Both the position numbers and the translations under genes were made by a program. From Aureitalea sp. L0-47 (GTDB lineage Bacteria; Bacteroidota; Bacteroidia; Flavobacteriales; Flavobacteriaceae), in assembly GCF_026126405.1 (NCBI RefSeq), contig NZ_JAFMTQ010000017.1, forward strand, positions 1-60,070: a DNA stretch of 60,070 nt. Reading direction: 5' to 3'. Within the stretch, counting starts at the first letter, position 1; each line of letters begins with the position of its first letter. Below the pieces are notes generated by a model. That model was given only the letters and a program-made list of their open reading frames with translations. It was not told the DNA's origin and did no database searches. Shown piece after piece: positions 57,177-59,950 of the stretch.

Positions 57177-59075
<1,899 letters not shown>

Positions 59076-59182
59076 GCTGTTAATTTCCTATAGAAAATAT
59101 AGCAGATCGTGCACTTCAACGATTTATTCACAACCTTTATCTAAAAGTAGGAAAAGTCTGAATCCGGTTCGAGAAATTCATC

Positions 59183-59319
59183 TATATTTGACTCATACCA
59201 TAGCATAAGTAGGTTAAGTTCATGGTAAGATTTGGGGCAAAAAAGGTGAGCGCAAGCTCGCCTTTTTTATTGCCCCAAATCTAAGGGGTGGTGAGCTGCG
59301 TTAGCAGCGAACCGTATCC
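59183..59319 (+). repeat. Structured repeat, copy A (candidate small-RNA unit)
   Basis: It starts with TATATTTG, an exact -7 motif, and its first 45 bp are identical to copy B. A palindrome follows: outer arms GATTTGGGGC (59229-59238) and GCCCCAAATC (59272-59281), inner hairpin GGTGAGC-GCAA-GCTCGCC (59245-59262) flanked by A6 and T6. Then comes a shared tail with GCTGC-GTTA-GCAGC. Confidence 0.85.
59239..59268 (+). terminator. Intrinsic terminator within repeat copy A
   Basis: A6, a 7-bp stem with a GCAA tetraloop, then T6. It would end a transcript of about 75 nt begun at the TATATTTG of the same repeat, and it can also work in reverse. Confidence 0.65.
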
Positions 59320-59400
59320 TACTATCACCTCGTTAAGCTCGCCAATTATTCACAAATCCATGGGGTGGCGACGAAATTCTTTTTTGTAAAATAGTGAAAA

Positions 59401-59429
59401 CAAAAAAGATTGAGGAGCCGTTTTACATC
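59401..59429 (+). repeat. Short dispersed repeat, copy 1
   Basis: 29 bp around GAGGAGCCGTTTT match 59567-59595 at 24 positions by direct count. Confidence 0.6.
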
Positions 59430-59566
59430 CTATTGATCATGCTCGTCTATTTTGTTTCTTATCAACCAAATCTATAGAGTTTGATGCCTGCCGCTCGTGC
59501 GGGTATCTTCACCAAATGTCCACACTTCGACAAGCTCAGCGACCGCAGAACATTCGGTTTTTTTCA

Positions 59567-59595
59567 CAAAAACGATCGAGGAACCGTTTCAAATC
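59567..59595 (+). repeat. Short dispersed repeat, copy 2
   Basis: It is related to 59401-59429 (GAGGAACCGTTTC here). Neither copy lies in a gene. Confidence 0.6.
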
Positions 59596-59811
59596 TCTCG
59601 AATAGGGATCCAAAATCGCATTTCGGGAAATCTTACTGTTAAGTGATTACAGGTATAGGAACGTTTGAATTTAACTATAAAAACCTTAACTTTTGCGAGA
59701 GTATTCGTCTCAAAATGCCCGCTATGAAAGAGAATTCCTATCAAAAGTTGCATTTTAACGAAAAAAGCGGGTTTTGGTCTAAAACTTTGGATTTTGAAAA
59801 ATATAAACCTA

Positions 59812-59950
59812 TATATTTGACTCATACCATAGCATAAGTAGGTTAAGTTCATGGTAGATTTGGGGCAAAAAAAGGTGAATTCTCATTCACCTTTTTTTAT
59901 TGGCCCAAATCGAAGGGGTGGCGAGCTGCGTCAGCAGCGAGGCGTATTCC
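59812..59950 (+). repeat. Structured repeat, copy B (candidate small-RNA unit)
   Basis: Same order as copy A: TATATTTG (59812-59819), the identical 45-bp segment, GATTTGGGGC at 59857-59866 with GGCCCAAATC at 59902-59911, and inner hairpin GGTGAAT-TCTC-ATTCACC (59874-59891) between A7 and T7. Two stem pairs differ from copy A on both sides, so pairing is kept. Confidence 0.85.
59867..59898 (+). terminator. Intrinsic terminator within repeat copy B
   Basis: A7, a perfect 7-bp stem with a TCTC loop, then T7. It corresponds to the terminator in copy A with covarying stem bases. Confidence 0.65.

Follow-up and report, generated by a model that had tools for sequence, protein, structure and literature searches.

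Flavobacteriaceae are major marine polysaccharide degraders, and to our knowledge little is known about RNA regulation in this family. In Aureitalea sp. L0-47, contig C8, which we analysed over its complete length of 60,070 bases (the window), carries near its end two closely similar units with a promoter-like element, a shared segment and a hairpin. What are these units, and what might control them? A sequence-only reading had proposed a regulatory RNA of 75-90 nt. Here we find that the two units appear to be copies of a small RNA regulator, one that has stayed nearly unchanged in most sampled Flavobacteriaceae; the comparative evidence, namely the core, the covarying terminator, the promoter element, the locus and the tandem copies, points to a regulatory RNA of about 75 nt. 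Sequence comparison yields each part of this picture, from the family, its locus and the covariation of its terminator to the -7 element, the upstream boxes and the co-occurrence with a regulator. With a near-invariant sequence in most sampled genomes of the family, a fixed locus and a candidate regulator that can be named, this sRNA provides a defined circuit for the field to test.

Two copies of a candidate small RNA in one intergenic region

The two units lie 629 bp apart from start to start, with TATATTTG at 59183-59190 and 59812-59819, and share 45 identical bases (59183-59227 and 59812-59856) that include this element, all as the sequence-only reading had placed them. A 37-nt piece of the shared segment matches only these two sites in the window when up to three mismatches are allowed, and 100 shuffles gave no match. 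RNA folding z-scores of the units against shuffles are -9.0 and -6.7.

Both copies are on the forward strand. The predicted RNA of copy A, about 75 nt long, spans 59197-59271 (covariance model score 99.1 bits, supported by the fold and by pair counts) and comprises hairpin 1 (59196-59227), a linker or seed, GATTTGGGGC (59229-59238), and an intrinsic terminator (59239-59268). Copy B, likewise about 75 nt, spans 59826-59900 (94.9 bits, and the fold) with hairpin 1 at 59825-59856, the seed at 59857-59866 and the terminator at 59867-59898. A small open reading frame starting at an ATG in the core was considered and rejected because copies A and B are out of frame with each other, copy A having one extra base before GATTTGGGG. 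By eye, a CTTCGACAAGCTCAGCGACC stretch and A/T-rich repeats are seen at 59480-59570 of the same intergenic region.

Upstream lies a purF-like amidophosphoribosyltransferase gene (57177-59075, forward strand), assigned by NCBIfam, Pfam and synteny; its TIGR01134 score of 131 bits is below the NCBIfam cut-off of 350, and Pfam GATase domains are present. Contig C65 opens with 128 bases that match the final 128 of the window at 98% identity, and we therefore took it as the continuation. On C65 lie a solo hairpin element, a gene with a START domain and, in convergent orientation, a superoxide dismutase (sod) gene. The usual order in 46 stretches of named genomes is a PfkB-family kinase gene, the purF-like gene, one to three sRNA copies, the convergent sod gene and a helicase-like gene, with two extra genes between purF and the RNA in three of them. 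The purF gene is found upstream in 42 of the 46, and in the remaining four the sequence stops between 16 and 472 bp before the copy. At further loci (82 readable of 84), which are not independent because some genomes contribute more than one, purF and sod flank the RNA in 61, purF alone is present in 17, sod alone in one and neither in three, so that purF is upstream in 78 of 82.

Conservation across Flavobacteriaceae

A 115-base query searched against 198 relatives at E 0.01 matched 108, nine of them outside Flavobacteriaceae and weak. The 46 named stretches were retrieved with an exact 34-base string; their titles give Flavobacteriaceae, unplaced Bacteroidetes, Bacteroidia or Flavobacteriales, and further genera that we take to belong to Flavobacteriaceae. 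We then used a covariance model (R1) built from 74 chosen copies aligned over 84 columns, 40 of which are invariant. The model search across the family, proposed as a check by the sequence-only reading, bore it out: 261 of 299 sampled Flavobacteriaceae genomes match at E <=0.01, 237 of them below 1e-10 and 24 more weakly, and 38 have no match. In a class-wide sample of 395 genomes all matches of at least 70 bits are in Flavobacteriaceae (70-101 bits), and the best elsewhere reaches 42.8 bits; eight of these outside matches were inspected, look terminator-like, and none was counted. The window has no Rfam match at the gathering cut-offs, and at loose E-values the best Rfam matches are terminator-like stems. 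Among the open-licence papers that our searches listed, none describes this RNA in its title or the opening of its abstract.

For counts of promoters, boxes, arms and spacings a set of 222 copies was collected by a regular-expression search for the initial 26 bases of the core, and divergent copies are therefore missing from these counts. This set contains 15 distinct 41-nt cores. Examined loci carry one to six tandem copies, spaced by 176-1343 bp (median 228 bp), and genomes have one to eight model matches at E 0.01, weak ones included.

Tandem duplication, together with an array of the 3' part in one relative (L022), could also suggest a mobile or extragenic palindromic repeat. The 3.38-Mb genome of Aureitalea sp. 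L0-47 holds just two full units, its other six matches being the hairpins of these two units read on the opposite strand and four weak ones (E >=0.04), and not the dozens of copies among unrelated palindromes that had been named as counter-evidence. As the RNA also occupies the same locus across many genera, we consider a repeat of this kind extremely improbable.

Covariation in the terminator

In the 74-sequence alignment six of the 11 pairs of the terminator stem change on both sides, with all cells paired, whereas hairpin 1 has seven of 11 invariant pairs and none with a two-sided change. Two-sided changes amount to 86 cells compared with 24.6 in shuffles. Covariation therefore supports the terminator, and hairpin 1 is a prediction from folding. 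Between the window copies the inner stem differs on both arms (GGTGAGC/GCTCGCC in copy A, GGTGAAT/ATTCACC in copy B), as first read from the sequence, with one U.G pair in copy A. The proposed self-pairing of the 45-base segment (TACCAT with ATGGTA) holds as pairing and finds no counterpart in covariation, given the lack of two-sided changes in the 74 sequences.

The linker between hairpin 1 and the terminator, AGAUUUGGGGC, is near-invariant. It forms the 5' side of the outer arms, in which its partner is a cis complement that directly follows the terminator. In the window the arms GATTTGGGGC/GCCCCAAATC described by the sequence-only reading are present, the 3' arm of copy A lying at 59272-59281; copy B has GGCCCAAATC, with one mismatch, followed by a GGGGTGGCGA hairpin (together 59902-59950, forward strand). 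As a feature of the family they did not hold up: a cis complement of at least 7 nt follows the terminator in 36 of 195 copies, compared with about one expected from shuffles (27 of the 222 copies were dropped because of an unclear T run). The complement is thus a lineage feature outside the common parts of the family. The 5' arm, being part of the RNA core, is conserved throughout the family.

A GGGGTGG hairpin is found nearby in 29 of the 36 copies with a cis complement. This lineage-specific element reads GGGGTGG-Y-GA-(variable stem)-GA-RCC, its internal loop being GA/GA. On the forward strand of the window it occurs 3' of copy A (59285-59319), 3' of copy B (59915-59950) and as a solo GGGGTGGCGA...GAGCC hairpin with no sRNA copy directly 5' (59362-59425); among relatives it is seen in L090 (from position 131 onward) and in L022. 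Its closing pairs covary, relatives showing changes from GGC/GCC to GGT/ACC. Among the 58 of 84 elements with a readable partner, GGC..GCC occurs 42 times, GGT..ACC 11 times, GGT..GCC four times and GGC..ACC once. In L022 a unit of this hairpin plus an anti-seed is repeated about every 105 bp, with at least five further copies.

Promoter element and paired upstream boxes

A TAnnTTnG element starts 14 to 12 bases before the core ACC in 208 of the 222 copies, compared with an upstream background of 0.08% per position. Lack of a conserved position of the -7 motif had been named as a result that would speak against a regulatory RNA; the position is instead fixed in many genomes, and on this basis TATATTTG is assigned as the -7 promoter element of both window copies.

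Further upstream, an EM search on 193 non-redundant regions, seeded with a motif spotted by eye, yielded paired direct repeats with the consensus GCnnTTYATCGAAA. A period of 20 is seen in 129 regions and one of 21 in a further 37 (together 166 of 193), and the information content is 9.3 bits, compared with 3.1-3.4 bits in five mononucleotide shuffles, where periods are flat. The first box starts at -76 to -73 in 132 of the 193 regions and at -88 to -85 in 35, the latter group sitting about one helical turn further out. The window shows both arrangements: copy A has the far one, with GCACTTCAACGATT at 59111-59124 and AACCTTTATCTAAA at 59132-59145 (21 bp apart), and copy B the near one, with GCATTTTAACGAAA at 59750-59763 and GGTTTTGGTCTAAA at 59770-59783 (20 bp apart), all on the forward strand. 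The nearer box starts 65 bp before the core in copy A and 56 bp before it in copy B. A strict box-pair pattern, which was derived from these two promoters themselves, has two sites in the 3.38-Mb genome, one before each copy, and none in a reversed control.

Boxes do not precede every copy. The last copy of 20 arrays (L028, L030, L034, L038, L083, L092 and 14 more) has a strongly conserved upstream sequence of its own, CCAGTAATTTAG, and often a GGGACGAAAAGGG terminator variant; there the paired boxes appear to be weak or absent, and those of the 20 copies for which a score was read scored low.

The arrangement of LytTR-type promoters, with direct repeats in pairs separated by about two helical turns and placed upstream of the core promoter, is thus found here, and the repeats resemble boxes for LytTR response regulators. 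AlgR sites read CCGTTCGTC and CCGTTCATC (PMC4064291), and the direct repeats bound by AgrA have their centre near -60 (PMC4227749). The box core resembles the AlgR sequences and the repeats recall those of AgrA, whereas the present consensus, GCnnTTYATCGAAA, has a period of 20-21 and an A-rich 3' side.

These promoter features also bear on a simpler view of the locus. Given a position between converging genes and a palindromic hairpin flanked by A and T runs, the units could be bidirectional terminators or attenuators between purF and sod whose transcript has no function. For a terminator, a near-invariant core, a promoter element of its own and upstream boxes would all be superfluous; moreover, the copies are tandem, with a median spacing of 228 bp, and no purF was found upstream in four of 82 loci. 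We regard this explanation as very improbable.

A candidate LytTR regulator

If the boxes are LytTR sites they predict an accompanying LytTR protein, and we therefore searched for this family in 11 genomes that have the RNA, a large part of which are small, and in five RNA-negative ones. A tree was built from 61 of the 62 matches, omitting a partial one from G119. One clade (support 99/99) contains exactly one protein from each of ten of the 11 RNA-positive genomes, the exception being G249, a draft that is 89% complete, and none of the 27 LytTR proteins from four RNA-negative genomes; the fifth RNA-negative genome has no LytTR protein at all. In three RNA-positive genomes (G052, G098 and G262) there is no LytTR match besides this one. 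The candidate regulator combines PF04397 with PF00072, and its gene sits between the divergent rpsF-rpsR genes and a convergent priA-like gene in nine of nine neighbourhoods, with rplI next in eight; in G098 one extra frame separates rpsF and the regulator. In Aureitalea sp. L0-47 the gene lies outside the window, at C17:7538-8227.

A profile of the clade was then run on the same 299 genomes, with E <1e-75 scored as clear and >1e-64 as absent, and tallied and recounted by hand. The regulator is clear in 224 of 233 genomes with a strong RNA match compared with two of the 36 in which the RNA is missing (p 2e-32 in Fisher's test, a value that ignores shared ancestry). This tally left out the 24 weak-RNA genomes and six with middling regulator scores, four of which have the RNA (G049, G085, G269 and G347, of which the tree places two in the clade) and two of which lack it (G220 and G381). 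Adding the weak-RNA genomes to those without the RNA changes the counts to 224 with and nine without the regulator versus seven with and 53 without.

Boxes and co-occurrence together point to this one LytTR regulator as the predicted controller of both copies. Alternatively, the sRNA may be real and its boxes read by a different regulator, the LytTR gene beside rpsF merely being co-inherited or co-lost with it. Such a reading could draw on the statistic's neglect of phylogeny, on the nine strong-RNA genomes in which the regulator is not clear, and on the reverse case of G016 and G325, two genomes of one genus with the regulator and a weak or no RNA match. It could also draw on the receiver domain, whose phospho-Asp is kept in 27 of 33 distinct proteins, mostly the best-scoring ones, and lost in six from genomes of 1.6-2.7 Mb. 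The form and spacing of the boxes are nevertheless of LytTR type, and in three small RNA-positive genomes no other LytTR match is found, so that we consider control by a different regulator unlikely. Among L361-L390 and the clade members in the tree, several small-genome lineages have lost the phospho-Asp of the regulator beside rpsF-rpsR and retained its DNA-binding domain.

Possible targets and mode of action

The reverse complement of the core, CCCCAAAUCUUACCAUGAAC, contains CCCCAAATCTTACCATGAAC, a possible start codon with its upstream stretch. RNAduplex was applied to 285 start regions taken from 400 kb of genome sequence; with these the core has a mean duplex energy of -14.8, compared with -12.7 (sd 0.43) for shuffled cores, none of 40 being as low. 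Windows inside genes reach still stronger absolute energies with the core (-15.6), and the gap between start and internal windows is 0.84, compared with 2.37 (sd 0.45) for shuffled cores. The strong end of the energy range holds six start regions versus 2.6 for shuffled cores (sd 1.7, up to 10). With two mismatches allowed, AAATCTTACCATGAA occurs 18 times in the genome, the RNA gene itself included, versus 22 times for the reversed control, and is not enriched. CCCCAAATC is found at 24 places versus 11 for the reversed control, four of the 24 belonging to the sRNA locus and the C65 continuation. An OmpA-like lipoprotein gene (L150), the single target candidate that looked plausible, was tried and rejected, as the pairing is kept in none of the 14 relatives readable in the right direction (30 loci).

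As pairing is better than with shuffled cores, but with neither enrichment of AAATCTTACCATGAA nor a conserved target in these searches, LytTR-controlled base-pairing is the best reading and titration of a protein its main rival. Titration is the function of CsrB-type and 6S-type RNAs, and here tandem copies, an invariant hairpin and a purine-rich linker might capture an RNA-binding or regulatory protein instead of pairing with mRNA. Invariance extends over the entire core, with the loop and the two strands of hairpin 1 included, which is more than a short seed needs; several copies per locus would suit such a role, and so would the lack of a conserved mRNA target in the searches run. CsrB-type RNAs, however, carry repeated motifs, and the present RNA has one core motif. 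The core also resembles the FopS seed and a FopS-like RNA of another Flavobacteriales family, and has no Rfam match at the cut-off. Protein titration is to us a minor possibility, though one to be kept in mind.

With moderate confidence we therefore read the units as paralogous genes of a trans-acting sRNA of about 75 nt that is controlled by LytTR, acts by base-pairing and likely blocks start codons. Transcription, regulator binding and its sign, the base-pairing mode and the start-codon target are what we infer in this scheme. Both copies would be transcribed from -7 promoters of the Bacteroidota type, and the LytTR response regulator encoded divergently from rpsF-rpsR would bind the paired boxes and so set the dose of both. 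The resulting RNA would consist of hairpin 1, the exposed linker and the intrinsic terminator. Its near-invariant core may base-pair with mRNAs, most likely over their start codons, and this pairing would block translation, as FopS does in Bacteroides.

Comparison with known systems

FopS sRNAs of Bacteroides thetaiotaomicron block the start regions of susC genes and are antagonised by RbpB, as described in PMC11697453; the homolog search given there used BLAST with a word size of 28 and reported Bacteroidaceae. The FopS model (RF04319) scores the two copies at 19.5-19.9 bits, below its gathering cut-off of 56, and is above the cut-off in none of 119 relatives; in the own genome it has seven weak matches, the best at E 1.15. 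Membership of FopS thus fails. The model nevertheless aligns to the core via UUCAUGGUA..AGAUUU in the same order, and the FopS R1' seed shares 9 + 6 identical bases with the core across a 2-nt gap. This score is reached by 149 of 20,000 core shuffles and equalled by one of 285 antisense start windows, so that the likeness of the seed is suggestive only.

Like FopS and GibS (PMC11697453 and PMC7366714), the present RNA comes in multicopy paralogs, here one to six per locus, ends in a terminator hairpin and has the shared string, which is complementary to a start-codon region. FopS has a single-stranded 5' part, whereas the 5' half is here predicted to fold into hairpin 1, a structure without covariation support, and half of the FopS-like seed falls inside this hairpin. 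The 14 FopS members are described as intergenic, antisense or 3'-UTR-derived (PMC11697453); the present copies are tandem, mostly at one locus, with LytTR-like boxes at their promoters.

Two FopS-model matches from another Flavobacteriales family (L110 and L111) are likely sRNAs with a promoter-like element of their own, a terminator and a seed similar to that of the present RNA; their antisense frames have 27-28 codons only. They share TTCATRGTAAGATTTKGGG with the core, a score reached by one of 5000 shuffles (L110 only), compared with 127 of 5000 for L110 against FopS itself, and because both were chosen from FopS-model matches they are not an independent draw. The best FopS-model match among the 119 relatives (L109) was rejected, as it lies antisense over the beginning of a frame of 316 codons. 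We may speculate, at a rather low probability, that an ancient Bacteroidota sRNA with a start-codon-blocking seed gave rise to both this RNA and FopS/GibS, with L110 and L111 as intermediates, that in Flavobacteriaceae a dedicated LytTR regulator linked to rpsF-rpsR captured the RNA, and that in some lineages the anti-seed GCCCCAAAUC after the terminator, repeated in the ~105-bp array of L022, serves as a sponge on the RNA upon read-through. If the link to FopS holds, blocking of start codons by sRNAs would reach far back in the history of the phylum.

Within Flavobacteriaceae, a study of Flavobacterium psychrophilum reports 85 new independent transcripts (PMC9723704). One of these is Rfp18, which is required for precise protease expression and whose deletion lowers two protease mRNAs; Rfp11, 13 and 15 are conserved in other species. 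Candidate sRNAs have also been reported in F. columnare (PMC5395568). The Rfp RNAs resemble the present RNA in being flavobacterial sRNAs, some of them conserved in further species, and one of these or of the F. columnare sRNAs may be this RNA. Rfp18 is set apart by its description, which names a third stem-loop (PMC9723704), whereas two hairpins are found here.

In its proposed logic the system also recalls better-known circuits. Qrr, the Cia-dependent sRNAs and LhrC are sets of sRNAs under response-regulator control. As in these sets, which are named in PMC11697453, several near-identical sRNAs would answer to one regulator. They differ in that the candidate controller here is a LytTR regulator, the promoter is of the Bacteroidota type and the sequence is unrelated.
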